The position numbers and the translations under genes are program-made. The notes below the pieces were generated by a model. It had not been told where the DNA came from and made no database searches. It worked only from the letters and a program-made list of their open reading frames with translations. A stretch of 64,000 nt of DNA from Exiguobacterium alkaliphilum 12/1 (GTDB lineage Bacteria; Bacillota; Bacilli; Exiguobacteriales; Exiguobacteriaceae): the NCBI RefSeq assembly GCF_000714435.1, contig NZ_JJMW01000021.1:1-64000 (forward strand), given 5' to 3'. Positions 2,338 through 17,736 of this stretch are shown piece by piece (within the stretch, counting starts at the first letter, position 1; the number at the start of each line of letters is the position of its first letter).

Positions 2338-3380
2338 AATCATACAGTTTTCGAAAAGGCCCGTTCTCGTTCACGCTCCGGAGACGGGAAATCGTGCTAG
2401 CGGTCGCGCTCCTTACCGGCCTGTTCATCGCCTTCTATTTGGGACTCGCCATCGGGGACACTTTTTTGACCCCATGGTCGCTCGGGTCACTCTTTCTCGG
2501 TTCGGGTGACGCGTTCGCCGAGCTCGTCGTATTCGAGTTCCGGATGCCACGCGTCCTGATGGCCATCACGGCTGGAGCGTGTCTCGCGGTCAGTGGACAC
2601 TTGTTGCAGCTCACGATTAAAAACGAGCTCGCGTCGCCGGAGATTTTCGGCATCGTCGGCGGGGCCGGGGTGGCGACGGCGACGTTTTTCACTGTCTTCA
2701 CCGATGAGCGGACGAACCAATTGTCCGTCCCGCTCGCCTATATCCCGTTTGCCTCGTTCGCAGGGGCGTTGACGGTCGGTGCATTCTTGTTTTATCTATT
2801 GAAACGGGGCGTCCCGCCGGTCCGACTCGCGTTAATTGGAATCGGGATCAGCATCTTCTCGCAAGGGATTGTCCAGTTCATGATGCTCGCCTCGAATGTG
2901 TATCGGAAGAACGACATCCAACAATGGCTCACCGGCACCGTCTATGCGGCGACATGGAATCAATTGAAAATCCTGGTGCCGCTCGCGATTCTGTTTCTAC
3001 TCGCTGCCTTTTTGATTGAACGACATGTCCGGCCGCTCCATATTAGCGAGGCGGTCGCGACGAGCATCGGCGTCCCGGTCCGGGGCACGCAGCGCGGTAC
3101 GCTGTTGTTGTCGTGTCTGCTTGCCGGGATTGGGGTCGCGTTCGTCGGAGCGATTGGCTTCGTCGGACTGATGGCACCGCACATCGCCCGTCAAGGCTTG
3201 AAGCTGCCTTACGTTTGGGCGACGCTTCTCGTTGGTGCCATCATCGTCGTCTTGGCCGATGTGATCGCCCGGACGATCTTTTATCCGTATGAGCTCCGGA
3301 CCGGTGTCATGACGGCCGTGATTGGCGCGCCGTACTTCTTCTATTTACTTCGCCGCATGATGAAAGGAAGCATGAGATGA
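2334..3380 (+). CDS. FecCD-family iron-siderophore ABC permease, second subunit
   Basis: A 348-residue FecCD permease paralogous to the preceding one. Shared motifs are FRMPRVLMAITAGACLAVSG at the N-terminus and GAIGFVGLMAPHIARQ about two thirds along. With its neighbour it should form the transmembrane heterodimer of the ferric-siderophore importer. It starts inside the previous stop codon and overlaps the ATPase start by 4 bases, the usual permease-permease-ATPase order of FeuBC/YfiZ-YfhA type systems. Confidence 0.9.
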   Translation: MKSYSFRKGPFSFTLRRREIVLAVALLTGLFIAFYLGLAIGDTFLTPWSLGSLFLGSGDAFAELVVFEFRMPRVLMAITAGACLAVSGHLLQLTIKNELASPEIFGIVGGAGVATATFFTVFTDERTNQLSVPLAYIPFASFAGALTVGAFLFYLLKRGVPPVRLALIGIGISIFSQGIVQFMMLASNVYRKNDIQQWLTGTVYAATWNQLKILVPLAILFLLAAFLIERHVRPLHISEAVATSIGVPVRGTQRGTLLLSCLLAGIGVAFVGAIGFVGLMAPHIARQGLKLPYVWATLLVGAIIVVLADVIARTIFYPYELRTGVMTAVIGAPYFFYLLRRMMKGSMR

Positions 3381-4189
3381 ATACATTCGATTTACAACAA
3401 GTCGCCATCGGCTACGAACAGAAGACGGTGCTCGACGGGCTGACGTTCTCGATTCCACACGGGAAAATCACGGTGCTGCTCGGTGCGAACGGATGTGGCA
3501 AGTCGACGCTCCTCTCGACGCTCGCGAGGCAACGGGACGCGTTAGGTGGGACGATTTCGTTCCGTGACAAGCCACTCGTTGCGTATCGGGCGAAAGAGGC
3601 GGCCCGGCTCATGGCGTTCATGCCACAGGTGAACGTCGCACCGGACGGATTGACCGTCGAACAGCTTGTCCGCTTCGGCCGCTATCCGTATCAGACGTTC
3701 TTCAAGCGTTACTCCGAAGACGACGAACGCGCTGTCGAGCGGGCACTTGCCTTCACGGACACGGTCTCGCTTCGGGATACGCTCGTCAGCAATTTATCGG
3801 GCGGACAAAAGCAACGCGTCTGGATCGCACTCGCCTTAGCCCAAGAGTCGGAGACGATTCTACTCGATGAACCGACGACATACCTCGACATGTCGCATCA
3901 AATCGAGATTCTCGACTCGATGTACCGACTGAACCGGTTAGAGGGCAAGACAATCGTCATGGTGCTCCACGACTTGCATCTCGCCTGTCGTTACGCCGAC
4001 CACGTCATCGCGCTCGCAGACGGGAACGTCTATCGGGAAGGGAGCCCGAACGATGTTGTCGACGAAATGTTCATGCAGGACGTCTTCGGGTTGAAGGTCG
4101 TCGTGACGGAAGACCCGCTCTACGGCACACCGCTCTGTATCCCATATTCGCATTACGAGCTGAATGAGAAGCGACCGCCCACGACCTAG
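3377..4189 (+). CDS. Iron-siderophore ABC transporter ATP-binding protein
   Basis: A 270-residue FecE/FhuC-type ATPase that powers siderophore import. Visible motifs are Walker A GANGCGKST (near residue 36), signature LSGGQKQR (near 140), Walker B ILLDEPTTYLD and the switch histidine in MVLHDLH. It is the last gene of the operon, coupled by an ATGA overlap and closed by a strong terminator. In Bacillus one such ATPase (YusV) serves several siderophore permeases, so this one may also energise permeases elsewhere. Confidence 0.92.
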   Translation: MNTFDLQQVAIGYEQKTVLDGLTFSIPHGKITVLLGANGCGKSTLLSTLARQRDALGGTISFRDKPLVAYRAKEAARLMAFMPQVNVAPDGLTVEQLVRFGRYPYQTFFKRYSEDDERAVERALAFTDTVSLRDTLVSNLSGGQKQRVWIALALAQESETILLDEPTTYLDMSHQIEILDSMYRLNRLEGKTIVMVLHDLHLACRYADHVIALADGNVYREGSPNDVVDEMFMQDVFGLKVVVTEDPLYGTPLCIPYSHYELNEKRPPTT

Positions 4190-8665: not shown

Positions 8666-10310
<1,645 letters not shown>

Positions 10311-10330
10311 GTCTGTTCTTAATAGTTGAA

Positions 10331-10366
10331 GGGAGAAGCTTGAAATATAAAGCTTCTCCCTTTTTT
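10331..10366 (+). terminator. Terminator of groES-groL
   Basis: GGGAGAAGCTT / AAGCTTCTCCC perfect stem with an eight-base loop, then six T. It marks the border of the AT-rich insert that follows. Confidence 0.9.
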
Positions 10367-10536
10367 GTGTTGTTTTTTATTCACAAGTTTTTTAAGTTAT
10401 AATATGTATATTATTATAAAATCACTTCTTTATTAACCAATTATTTATCATAATAAGAAATTAAAGTTATATAATAGTATTGTAATGTACTGTAATTAAA
10501 ATTGAGAAAGTAAATTATCATTTAGGAGAATTTGGT

Positions 10537-11463
10537 ATGAAGAATATTTTCATAATTACAAACAGTATTGATTTGACAGTAGATTATCTAATCAATAAAT
10601 ACAGTAGTCATGAAATCAATTTTTTTAGATTTAATACGGACTATTTTCAAGACTATAAAATTATTATTACTGCAGAAGGTACAATTATAGAGTACAAAGA
10701 TCAATCTTCCCGCATCAATTTATCTAAGTGTGGCTCGTTGTACTATAGAAAAATATCTATGCCTTCTTTAAGTGAGTATGCACCTCGTTATATACCTTTA
10801 ATGCATAGAGAAATGCTTACTGTAATAGAAGGTATTGCAGAAACCACAGGAAAATATGCTATTACACGTCCTTCGATTTTAAGAAAAGCAGATAATAAAA
10901 TTGTACAAATGAAACTGGCTGGTGAATTAGGATTCAGGCTACCTCGTTCGTTAATTACTAATTCAAATATATCTGCAATGTCATTTTGTAGCGACGATCA
11001 AACAATAGTTAAGCCTATTTCTTTTGGCAAAATTATTGGAGAGGACACGATTGGATTTATTCAGACGAATCTAGTAGATAGAGAAACTTCGTTCTGCGAT
11101 TTAGACTATTCCCCTGCATATTTTCAATCGTATATTAGTAAAGACTACGAAGTTAGATTAACTATTGTCGGGGATAAACTATTTGGTGTAAGAATAGATT
11201 CTACAGACAAGGTTGATTGGAGAAAAGAAAGTTCAATACTACAATATAGTACTTTACGAGTACCAGCTGATATTAGTGATAAATGTATAAAAATGATGAA
11301 GCTTTTGAAACTAAATTTTGCGGCGTTCGATTTCATTGTCCACGAAGGTGAGTATATCTTTCTCGAGTTGAATGCAAATGGACAATGGCTATGGTTAGAA
11401 GAAGAATTGAATTTAAAAATTTCTGACGCCTTAATAGATAATTTGTTGGGTAAAAAAACATGA
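10537..11463 (+). CDS. ATP-grasp ligase of the graspetide (omega-ester peptide) synthetase type
   Basis: A 308-residue MvdD/MdnC-like ATP-grasp enzyme. It should activate Asp/Glu side chains of the precursor as acyl phosphates and join them to Thr/Ser hydroxyls (ester macrocycles). The N-terminal pre-ATP-grasp domain contains the typical LYYRKIS; TIVKPISFG is the first ATP-binding lysine; DYEVRLTIVGDKLFGVRID is the central strand pair with arginine; the metal-binding end is FLELNANGQWLWLE, highly characteristic of this family. SD TTAGGAG precedes ATG 10537. It overlaps the next gene by 4 bases. The DNA is far more AT-rich than groL before it, which points to horizontal transfer. Confidence 0.88.
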   Translation: MKNIFIITNSIDLTVDYLINKYSSHEINFFRFNTDYFQDYKIIITAEGTIIEYKDQSSRINLSKCGSLYYRKISMPSLSEYAPRYIPLMHREMLTVIEGIAETTGKYAITRPSILRKADNKIVQMKLAGELGFRLPRSLITNSNISAMSFCSDDQTIVKPISFGKIIGEDTIGFIQTNLVDRETSFCDLDYSPAYFQSYISKDYEVRLTIVGDKLFGVRIDSTDKVDWRKESSILQYSTLRVPADISDKCIKMMKLLKLNFAAFDFIVHEGEYIFLELNANGQWLWLEEELNLKISDALIDNLLGKKT

Positions 11464-12512
11464 AAAAATTACAGTATAGTTTATTTAAAATTTTGTCTTT
11501 TAGCCCTGTTATTAGAATCACGGACGACTCAAAATTTAACAAAATAACTAAAGAACCTAAAAAAATTCGATATTCATTATTGAGTTTTAATCTAGGAACT
11601 AAAAGTTTTTATTTATTCACCTATACCGATAAGGAAGGGTTTAAATTTTTATATATTCTTGATCTTTATGAGGTACAAAAATACCATGAAATCATAGAAA
11701 AAAATGGGGATGAGTACGATGAATATTTAAGAGAATTGTATTTAAAGTCGCCTGAGAGGCGAATAGTTGAAAAGGAATTCATATTATTCAAAATCACAGA
11801 AGAAGTAAACATAAAAAACAAGACATTTAATAAGTTTTTAGCCTATATTGCTATAATTGCTTTTATTCTTCCTTTATATTCACCAAAGATAACCGAATTG
11901 TCCTCATACTTGGAATCTTATAAACTATTTTTTACAATTGGTATATTCTATTTATTTGTAAATATAATTTGTTTAAGTTATTCCTATATTAAAATAAAAG
12001 GATATAATCGTACCTTGCTAAGTAGCTTACGTAAAAACGAAAATCCAGGAATTTTACTAGTTGCATTACTTTTTTACGAATGGAAAAACACAGTTAATGA
12101 ATCCGTTATGGGTATAAGTATTATAAAAAATATTGAAAAATATATGTTTATGTTAATTATCCTTAGTGGGGTCATTATAATTTCGTCTAACATTGATACT
12201 TGGAAAATGAGTAAGGACCCAAAAAATACTATTATCGAGGAATCTGCTGTGGAATCGGCATTCTTTAATCTAAAATCTGAACCAAATATAAATCTCTTTT
12301 TAAAAAGAAATGAAGAGCAAGTTGAGAGGATAAACAATGCGTTATTATCCGAAGAATACAAAACGCTTCTTATGATTTCAGATGAAAGTAGTAAAATCAT
12401 TAATGAATATAAAAAGCTACTTGATTTTTACAAAAGTCAAAAAGTACGTATAATTAAAATTAAGAATGATGAACTATCTGAAAATATAGAAATCATATTG
12501 TTGAAGGAGTGA
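11460..12512 (+). CDS. Membrane protein of unknown function in the graspetide cluster
   Basis: A 350-residue protein that matches no family I recognise. The soluble N-terminal part (1-125, rich in Tyr/Phe/Lys) is followed by two membrane helices (about 126-143 and 155-178), a loop with ENPGILLVALLFYEWK, a third helix (about 228-247) and a C-terminal cytoplasmic or extracytoplasmic domain of 100 residues with helical, charged character. It lacks ABC, peptidase or MFS motifs. Its start overlaps the ligase stop (ATGA), and the precursor gene follows after 9 bases. It could export, process or confer immunity to the modified peptide; none of these is shown by the sequence. Confidence 0.7.
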   Translation: MKKLQYSLFKILSFSPVIRITDDSKFNKITKEPKKIRYSLLSFNLGTKSFYLFTYTDKEGFKFLYILDLYEVQKYHEIIEKNGDEYDEYLRELYLKSPERRIVEKEFILFKITEEVNIKNKTFNKFLAYIAIIAFILPLYSPKITELSSYLESYKLFFTIGIFYLFVNIICLSYSYIKIKGYNRTLLSSLRKNENPGILLVALLFYEWKNTVNESVMGISIIKNIEKYMFMLIILSGVIIISSNIDTWKMSKDPKNTIIEESAVESAFFNLKSEPNINLFLKRNEEQVERINNALLSEEYKTLLMISDESSKIINEYKKLLDFYKSQKVRIIKIKNDELSENIEIILLKE

Positions 12513-12521
12513 ATAATTCTT

Positions 12522-12959
12522 ATGAAATCGCCTTATATTGCAGCCTATATTGAGGAGTCAGTAATACAAAAATCCACTCACTTATTTTATGACAGTAAAA
12601 CACAAATTAATTATCTTGATAAAAACTTGAACATCAAGGCTATTACTTTTAGAGGTCCTGATACAACAATTGTGACAGAGACTGTTGAAAATTCGGATGT
12701 TAATTATATGGGACCTGAAACTACAAGAATTACAAAAACAAATGAAGCTAGTGATGTCGAATCTTTGACTTTGGGCCCCGAAACAACTCTAGAAACTAAC
12801 ACGGTTGAAAACTCAGATTTCGATGTCTTATTATTTGGGCCTCAAACGACTAGAAGAACTTTTGAAATTGAGATAGATGACGAATCGAATATACAATTGT
12901 TTTACGGACCTGATACAACCATTGTAACGAGAACACTTGAAAATAATGACACTCACTAA
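12522..12959 (+). CDS. Graspetide precursor with five TxxTxxxExxD core repeats (thuringinin-like)
   Basis: A 145-residue precursor with a leader of about 44 residues (containing HLFYDSKTQINYLDKNL) and five cores starting at residues 45, 64, 85, 106 and 129. Each core begins GP[DEQ]TT and fits TxxTxxxExxD, for example GPDTTIVTETVENSD. The spacers (VNYM, VESLTL, FDVLLF, ESNIQLFY) are variable and hydrophobic. The two Thr, Glu and Asp positions are invariant across all five cores, as expected if they become ester donors and acceptors. This is the consensus described for group 2 (thuringinin-like) graspetides. The gene sits last in the cluster; precursors more often precede the ligase. Confidence 0.85.
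   Translation: MKSPYIAAYIEESVIQKSTHLFYDSKTQINYLDKNLNIKAITFRGPDTTIVTETVENSDVNYMGPETTRITKTNEASDVESLTLGPETTLETNTVENSDFDVLLFGPQTTRRTFEIEIDDESNIQLFYGPDTTIVTRTLENNDTH
12654..12950 (+). repeat. Five tandem core-peptide repeats within the precursor gene
   Basis: Core units begin at nucleotides 12654, 12711, 12774, 12837 and 12906, a spacing of 57, 63, 63 and 69 bases. Protein conservation (GPxTTxxTxxxExxD) exceeds the DNA conservation between units, which indicates selection on the ring-forming residues and not recent duplication. Confidence 0.85.
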
Positions 12960-13217
12960 AGAGAAATAAATAAGACTAAATTTAAAATAGATGTCTTTTC
13001 CAAACAAATCTAAGACGAAAACCTAACGGAAGAAACTAGAGACAAACTCAATGATCGGATTGAGAGAATGGTGGATAAGTCATTTCAAAAAGATTCGGAG
13101 TTCAAGAGATGGATGGGTGCATCGATTTTGGCCAGGGTCATTGGTGCCGCATTGGCATTAGCTAAAAATCCAGAGGCGAGAAAAACACTGATTAATTTGC
13201 TGACGAAGAAGAGTTGA
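12960..13217 (+). pseudogene. Decayed small gene after the graspetide precursor
   Basis: No open gene, but one frame reads INKTKFKIDVFSKQI, a TAA at 13011, then DENLTEETRDKLNDRIERM and onward to a TGA at 13215. The second part looks like a real protein: an amphipathic helix, then WMGASILARVIGAALALAKN as a hydrophobic helix, then a basic end. No start codon with an SD is seen before the TAA; the first ATG after it (13069) would give 49 residues. It is either a broken gene or a remnant at the insert border. Base composition rises back toward host values along it. Confidence 0.4.
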
Positions 13218-13260
13218 ATGTAGCAAATAGGATAGTTGTACTAACTGTTTAAAAATAGCA

Positions 13261-13289
13261 GGAGCGACAATTCAATTCGTCGCTCCTTT
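13261..13289. terminator. Shared terminator at the right border of the AT-rich insert
   Basis: GGAGCGAC / GTCGCTCC perfect stem with a ten-base loop, followed by TTTCTT on the plus strand. It also lies directly after the minus-strand ABC permease gene. Confidence 0.65.
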
Positions 13290-13294
13290 CTTAT

Positions 13295-15964: not shown

Positions 15965-16080
15965 CGAATCCCTCCCTTTTTAGTGGGATTATACCATTGA
16001 TTCGTAGAAGACTTGAGTAACGAATTGGAATAAGATTATGCTAAACTGGAGATAATTTGAAATTAGATAAGGGTGTGTCG

Positions 16081-17736
16081 GTGAAGATGATTGAGGTCAT
16101 TCCGTTAGAATTTGATAAAACGAGTATAGATGAGATTGATCGGACAGCCGATTATTTGAACTATCCGGTGATTTATATTTTGAACGGACAGAAGGAAGCG
16201 TATATCGGGGAGACGGTACACTTTCAAAAACGGATGAAACAACATCTGAAGCTGAAACAAGCAGATCGGAAGAATGTGGACCAAATCAATCTCGTGAAGC
16301 ATGAGACGTTCAATCGATCGGCGACGTTCCATCTTGAGACGAAGTTGATTAACTACTTTTTAGGCGACGAGAAGTACACTTTACAAAACAAAAGCAAGAC
16401 GGCAAGCGACTTCACACACAATTATTACAATAAATCGTTCTATGATAATGAACTGTTTCCTGAGCTATGGGGTGTGCTACATAAGGAAGGGCTCGTCAAA
16501 AACGACCTGCACGCCATCGAGAACAAAGACATCTTTAAATTGTCACCGTTCAAAGAGTTATCCGTTGAACAGATGGGCTTGAAAGAGCGTGTACTCGAGT
16601 TCTGTGAGAAACGGATTATGGAGTCGAAGCCCGATGACACGTATGGAGACTTGTACGTCATTGAAGGAGAGGCCGGTGTCGGCAAGAGTGTCGTCCTCAG
16701 TTCTATCTTCAATACCATTCAAGCGCGGACGAACGAGGCGGGTTCGAATCTGCATCAGACGGAGAACTACCTGGTCGTCAATCACGAGGAGATGCTGAAG
16801 ACGTATAAAGGGATTGCCAAACAAGTCAAACACTTGAAGGCTGTCAACTTCGTCAAACCGACGCCGCTCCTGAACAAGTTAAAAGATAAGAAGGTTGATA
16901 TCATCTTGGTCGACGAGGCGCATCTCCTGTTGACGAAGTCGGATGCGTACAACAATTTCCGGGCGGAGAATCATCTCGAGGAGTTGATGAAACGTGCGAA
17001 GATTGTGATTGTCATCTTCGATCAACATCAAGTATTAAAAATGAAAAGTCGATGGAATCAGGGATTGCTCGAATCATTCAAACAGAAGGCGAAGGTCGCA
17101 CAGACGTATCAGCTGACAAACCAGTTCCGGATGCAGGCAGGTAAGGATGTCATCGATTGGATTGATGCCTTTAAAACCAAACAAATCAAAACGTTTCCGC
17201 AATCGAGTGAGTATGAGTTACGAATCTTTGAGACGTTAGAAGAGATGCACCAAGTGATTATGAAACAAGACAAGCTGCATGGATTGAGCCGTGTTGTCTC
17301 AACATTTGATTATATTCATAAGAAAGACGGCGAAACGTACTACGTCTATGAATCGAACGGGAACTATAAGTTGCCGTGGAATACGACGGGCGGTAAGACG
17401 ACGTGGGCCGAGAAGTCAGAGACAATTGCCGAGGCCGGGTCAATCTATACAATTCAAGGCTTTGATTTGAATTACGTTGGCGTCGTGTTAGGTCCTTCGG
17501 TGACGTACGATGAGACGAAGGATTGCTTGGTGATCGACACAAATCTTTATAAAGATACGGGTGCGTATGCAGGAATTGACGGTGTCAAAGATGTCGAGTT
17601 AGCGAAAGAACAGATCGTATTGAACTCCATCAATGTGTTGATGAAACGGGGCGTCCGAGGACTTTATTTGTATGCGAGCAATCAAGCGTTGCGAGATGAG
17701 CTGTTACACATTCAAAGAGAGAAGGTACAGACATGA
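16081..17736 (+). CDS. GIY-YIG nuclease / DUF2075 P-loop ATPase fusion
   Basis: A 551-residue two-domain protein. The N-terminal GIY-YIG nuclease is seen in VIYILNGQKEAYIGETVHF and KRMKQHL (residues 30-60). From about 180 it is a DUF2075 helicase-like ATPase: Walker A EGEAGVGKSVV, Walker B ILVDEAHLLL (DEAH), a later NQFRMQ motif, and IYTIQGFDLNYVGVVLG like superfamily 1 motif V. It likely acts on DNA. It overlaps a MazG-like gene by 4 bases. Nuclease plus helicase plus nucleotide hydrolase in an accessory block suggests phage defence; that is inference. GTG 16081 has AAGGG upstream. Confidence 0.82.
   Translation: MKMIEVIPLEFDKTSIDEIDRTADYLNYPVIYILNGQKEAYIGETVHFQKRMKQHLKLKQADRKNVDQINLVKHETFNRSATFHLETKLINYFLGDEKYTLQNKSKTASDFTHNYYNKSFYDNELFPELWGVLHKEGLVKNDLHAIENKDIFKLSPFKELSVEQMGLKERVLEFCEKRIMESKPDDTYGDLYVIEGEAGVGKSVVLSSIFNTIQARTNEAGSNLHQTENYLVVNHEEMLKTYKGIAKQVKHLKAVNFVKPTPLLNKLKDKKVDIILVDEAHLLLTKSDAYNNFRAENHLEELMKRAKIVIVIFDQHQVLKMKSRWNQGLLESFKQKAKVAQTYQLTNQFRMQAGKDVIDWIDAFKTKQIKTFPQSSEYELRIFETLEEMHQVIMKQDKLHGLSRVVSTFDYIHKKDGETYYVYESNGNYKLPWNTTGGKTTWAEKSETIAEAGSIYTIQGFDLNYVGVVLGPSVTYDETKDCLVIDTNLYKDTGAYAGIDGVKDVELAKEQIVLNSINVLMKRGVRGLYLYASNQALRDELLHIQREKVQT

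Follow-up and report, generated by a model that had tools for sequence, protein, structure and literature searches.

Three genes stand head to tail between positions 10537 and 12959 of the window (the whole 64-kb stretch of DNA that was analysed), in the order ATP-grasp ligase, membrane protein and precursor peptide (Table 1). All three reading frames are intact, the ligase and membrane-protein genes share 4 bases, and the GC content of the block is 25–33% vs. ~45–58% in its flanks. A weak promoter candidate precedes the ligase gene, its 9 out of 12 consensus matches being not above chance.

Table 1. Features of the locus, with positions in the window
Feature	Position	Strand	Basis
groL intrinsic terminator, 14-pair stem and T tail	10328..10363	+	Terminator scan
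Sigma-70-like promoter candidate, weak, 5' of the ligase gene	10502..10531	+	Consensus scan alone
Predicted ATP-grasp graspetide synthetase, MvdC/MvdD/TIGR04187 family, 308 aa	10537..11463	+	Profile and PDB matches
Membrane protein, 350 aa, candidate exporter or partner	11460..12512	+	Hydropathy; orthologues at the same place in Kurthia and G264
Predicted graspetide precursor, 145 aa, leader ~aa 1-44 (MKSPYIAAYIEE...) followed by five cores	12522..12959	+	Translation, motif scan
Core 1, GPDTTIVTETVENSD	12654..12698	+	Motif match
Core 2, GPETTRITKTNEASD	12711..12755	+	Motif match
Core 3, GPETTLETNTVENSD	12774..12818	+	Motif match
Core 4, GPQTTRRTFEIEIDD	12837..12881	+	Motif match
Core 5, GPDTTIVTRTLENND	12906..12950	+	Motif match
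Right border: remnant (3' part, 5'-truncated) of a gene for 141 aa	12987..13217	+	DNA and protein identity to L056/L057

Among the NCBIfam models, the ligase matched TIGR04187 (6e-55), MvdC (1e-46) and MvdD (1e-43) and, far more weakly, RimK (5e-14), but did not reach the curated cut-off of any NCBIfam graspetide model; the Pfam MvdD pre-ATP-grasp domain was recognized above the Pfam cut-off. Against the PDB, the best matches were CdnC (1.8e-30) and AMdnB (1.7e-29), followed by 5ig8 and 5ig9 (both entitled just “ATP grasp ligase”), with RimK at E-values of 0.71–0.8, and the catalytic-type segments DWRK and FDFIV...FLELNANG align with CdnC and AMdnB. The enzyme thus groups with peptide-modifying rather than non-peptide ATP-grasp ligases, which bears out the MvdD-type assignment of the initial annotation. 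More distant relatives were found in two phage records (27–34% identity) and on plasmids (up to about 31% identity among the matches listed), and none among the viral contigs searched. In one of the phage records, from a Leptospira phage (KF114876.1, L027), the ATP-grasp relative (positions 2501–3469, 34% identity) lies near helix-turn-helix genes.

The hydropathy profile of the membrane protein includes three hydrophobic segments (aa 126–144, 156–174 and 229–247). Its family search gave no usable match, a profile search against the PDB returned chance-level matches only, and structure prediction from three sequences yielded a poor model (mean pLDDT 48, pTM 0.28). Plasmid searches with this protein and with the precursor produced no matches.

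The five cores and the relatives of the cluster

The initial annotation had described five cores fitting GPxTT and TxxTxxxExxD, with Thr, Thr, Glu and Asp invariant throughout, and both statements hold: the combined motif GPxTTxxTxxxExxD is matched exactly in 5/5 cores. When the precursor was shuffled 200,000 times and matches to TxxTxxxExxD were counted, 194,717 of the shuffled sequences had no match, 5,235 had one, 48 had two and none had three or more. Nor did the motif occur a single time in the other frames of at least 40 codons within the 64-kb window. The invariant residues are written with different synonymous codons from one core to the next (Gly as GGT, GGA, GGC or GGG; Thr as ACA, ACT, ACG or ACC), showing that selection has preserved the protein residues rather than the DNA.

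The same three genes, in identical order and with the precursor last, were found in Kurthia zopfii ATCC 33403 (L003, NZ_QFVS01000047.1), at 59% identity for the ligase, 41% for the membrane protein and 52% for the precursor. The Kurthia cluster is alike in leader type (MKKPYIANYLEE) and in its GPxTT cores, but differs in core count (four intact cores and one degenerate stretch) and in its neighbours, as it adjoins sucA/sucB-type housekeeping genes. A very AT-rich genome from the window's phylum (G264) has the same gene order with lower identities (ligase 51%, membrane protein 26%, precursor 35%), and its cores are nearer to TxxTxxxExxDxD, with position 4 not conserved as Thr. A leader of the KKPYIAxYI type is common to all three loci, as KSPYIAAYI in the window and as PYIANYL or PYIANYI in Kurthia and G264. 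The window leader fits the Phhx(1,2)h motif published, together with multiple core repeats, for the thuringinin family, numbered precursor cluster 13 by Makarova et al. (PMC8939145).

The membrane protein is conserved across the three loci and is a candidate member of the cluster-18 family of Makarova et al.; an uncharacterized family of membrane proteins, found specifically in thuringinin loci and suspected of transport, has been reported (PMC8939145). Conservation of the three-gene unit of ligase, membrane protein and precursor in three lineages argues for the membrane protein being a member of the pathway. The initial annotation had presented the terminal position of the precursor and the intervening membrane gene as new, but both recur in Kurthia and G264, and a membrane protein typical of thuringinin loci was already on record (PMC8939145). 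Its claim of a new host lineage appears to stand, the ligase being present in one of the 38 genomes searched from the window's order and absent from the 37 others. Among 398 genomes drawn from the phylum, the membrane protein was found in the window genome and in G264 only. The three-gene unit is rare and patchily distributed, the pattern to be expected of clusters that move horizontally. A different graspetide-like cluster was seen in a separate genome (G825, L059:804-3356), where three small precursors with (S/T)(S/T)DESTDR at or close to their C termini accompany an ATP-grasp ligase, directly followed by a membrane gene without recognizable homology to that of the window.

How many cross-links each core would carry depends on which residues take part. 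Two acids are invariant per core (Glu12 and Asp15), and position 3 varies between Asp, Glu and Gln, which points to two esters per core rather than three. The initial annotation had instead proposed three, hence a loss of fifteen waters for the whole precursor. A third link through Thr4, or through the variable Asp/Glu, would be consistent with Thr4, Thr5 and Thr8 all being invariant in the five window cores and the four Kurthia cores. However, it would have to draw on the variable acid at position 3, Thr is not kept at position 4 in G264, and thuringinin itself has two esters in each of its three repeats (PMC12291112). We thus regard a product with three cross-links per core as very unlikely, and the number of waters expected to be lost is revised from fifteen to about ten.

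The slot between groL and the permease gene

DNA homology with relatives ends at position 10313, right after the groL stop codon, and the left border of the block lies at the groL terminator or just 5' of it. At the other end, DNA identity to two relatives (L056 and L057) is 80–82% from position 12987 on, and the remnant encoded there shares 84% protein identity over 49 aa with the 141-aa product of a gene that both relatives have in intact form. The interval from groL to an ABC permease gene (10313–13294) is a slot of variable content in relatives, and this variability, together with the truncated gene at the right border, supports an insertion behind groL. With the GC contrast and the terminator added, the initial description of an AT-rich block inserted at this point is upheld.

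The groL gene itself is frameshifted at 9485–9510 by one extra base (GCACACAGG vs. GCACCAGG in relatives, where the gene is intact and encodes 546 aa), a change that, in an essential gene, is most likely an error of sequencing or assembly. The contamination rating of the window genome is 7.6%.

Slot content was compared across ten further genomes of the genus that allowed both flanks to be located, and known or candidate defence genes occupy the slot in six of them: a DRT4 reverse transcriptase (L050), SIR2-HerA (L054), a type I restriction-modification system with a PIN-domain protein (L048, the groL at its far end lying in L060), an LmuB-like ATPase with partners, hence Lamassu-like (L049), and a trio with a PD-T4-6-like kinase (L051 and L053). 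The remaining four hold an ArsR/MFS-like pair, judged by eye (L047), an OmdA-type gene (L046), a gene without family match (L055) and almost nothing (L052). Going by this gene content, the groL-to-permease slot is a defence hotspot in the genus, and the graspetide cluster is probably horizontally acquired cargo there, an acquisition suggested by its presence in 1/38 genomes of the order, its AT-richness and the variable content of the slot.

The defence systems found in the slot are AT-rich. The kinase trio (L051:5290-7979 and L053:2847-5536) is a conserved AT-rich set made of a 217-aa protein, a Ser/Thr kinase like PD-T4-6 and a 400-aa protein, the first and third without Pfam or PADLOC match, and represents a candidate defence system. 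A few kb 3' of the graspetide cluster, an AT-richer gene (16057–17736) encodes a GIY-YIG nuclease domain fused to a Schlafen group 3 helicase domain, with weak PADLOC matches to PDC-S14.

It is tempting to speculate that the cluster is itself a defence cassette, in which the peptide (e.g., as a protease inhibitor) or the membrane protein (e.g., as a membrane effector) acts against phage. Beyond the six occupied slots, a PIN-domain gene near the G264 cluster belongs to the same Pfam family (PIN_12) as that of the L048 hotspot occupant. Such a role, if true, would explain why the cluster is found in a slot used by DRT4, SIR2-HerA, type I restriction-modification, Lamassu-like and kinase systems. 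However, the slot also takes non-defence cargo (an MFS-type transporter, an OmdA-type protein), PADLOC gives no match for the ligase or the membrane protein, the Kurthia copy sits beside housekeeping genes, and our literature search turned up no graspetide shown to act against phage. We therefore consider a defence cassette very unlikely, and would give as little credence to the broader idea that three-gene graspetide clusters travel with, and work within, the anti-phage repertoire, the peptide or its membrane partner blocking a phage protease or another step of infection. A hotspot address alone does not show the peptide to be a defence agent; the address does make such a possible role cheap to test.

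A decayed, non-functional remnant left after transfer might be suspected from the truncated gene at the right border and the degenerate core of the Kurthia relative, but is highly improbable for a cluster with three intact frames in which every invariant residue is kept in all five cores despite synonymous codon variation.

Predicted pathway and comparison with known graspetides

The block is very probably a thuringinin-like graspetide cluster of compact size that was acquired by horizontal transfer; its product, as read from the sequence, would comprise five bicyclic units closed by about ten esters. The thuringinin-like reading is supported by the ligase family, the five exact cores, the conserved three-gene order, the leader motif and the presence of a membrane protein in the locus, as published for thuringinin.

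By analogy with its family, the ligase would bind the PYIAAYIEE segment of the precursor leader and activate the Glu12 and Asp15 side chains of each core through ATP-dependent phosphorylation, the activated acids being joined to two Thr side chains per core, probably those of Thr5 and Thr8. The predicted outcome is a single polypeptide with five bicyclic units and about ten ester bonds, formed with the loss of ten waters. Removal of the leader would fall to a host protease, since the cluster encodes none, and the membrane protein would most likely, at a guess, export the product or anchor the process at the membrane. As to function, graspetides characterized up to 2022 have been described as protease inhibitors (PMC8939145), and our best guess by analogy is that the product would act as a multivalent inhibitor of proteases or as a competition peptide.

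The cluster resembles that of thuringinin (TgnA/TgnB of Bacillus thuringiensis, group 3 of Lee et al.) in its repeated TxxTxxxExxD-type cores, its single ATP-grasp ligase, its N-terminal leader with a Pro-hydrophobic motif and the uncharacterized membrane protein in the locus, a likeness drawn from published descriptions and the motif. It differs in having five cores instead of three, in the GP-x-T-T that opens each core and in its host. The thuringinin core motif is TxxTxxxExxDxD, with a last Asp, and this trailing xD is found in one of the five window cores (core 3, as DFD) and is common in those of G264. Its absence from most window cores weakens a strict group-3 assignment but leaves the likeness to thuringinin unaffected.

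Plesiocin is likewise a multivalent graspetide, with two esters per repeat and a single ATP-grasp ligase for its synthesis. The plesiocin-type core is TTxxxxEE, however, and none of the five window cores has an adjacent EE at that spacing. The initial label “group 2 (thuringinin-like)” was thus right about the thuringinin type and wrong about the group, as group 2 is that of plesiocin (PMC9576775), and thuringinin belongs to group 3, also matching group 4, with a precursor cluster shared with groups 3, 5 and 6 according to Makarova et al. (PMC8939145).

Five repeated motifs within one large precursor are also a feature of corallotide (PMC13097080), such that five cores as such, which had been put forward as a novelty, are not new among graspetides. 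Corallotide differs in its rings, which are oxygenase-hydroxylated Lys isopeptides, and in being found in Corallococcus only. As far as we can tell, both the host lineage and the presence of five repeats within the thuringinin-like subtype are new, the window precursor having, to our knowledge, the most repeats in that subtype, and the cluster would add a new bacterial order to the range of thuringinin-like graspetides.
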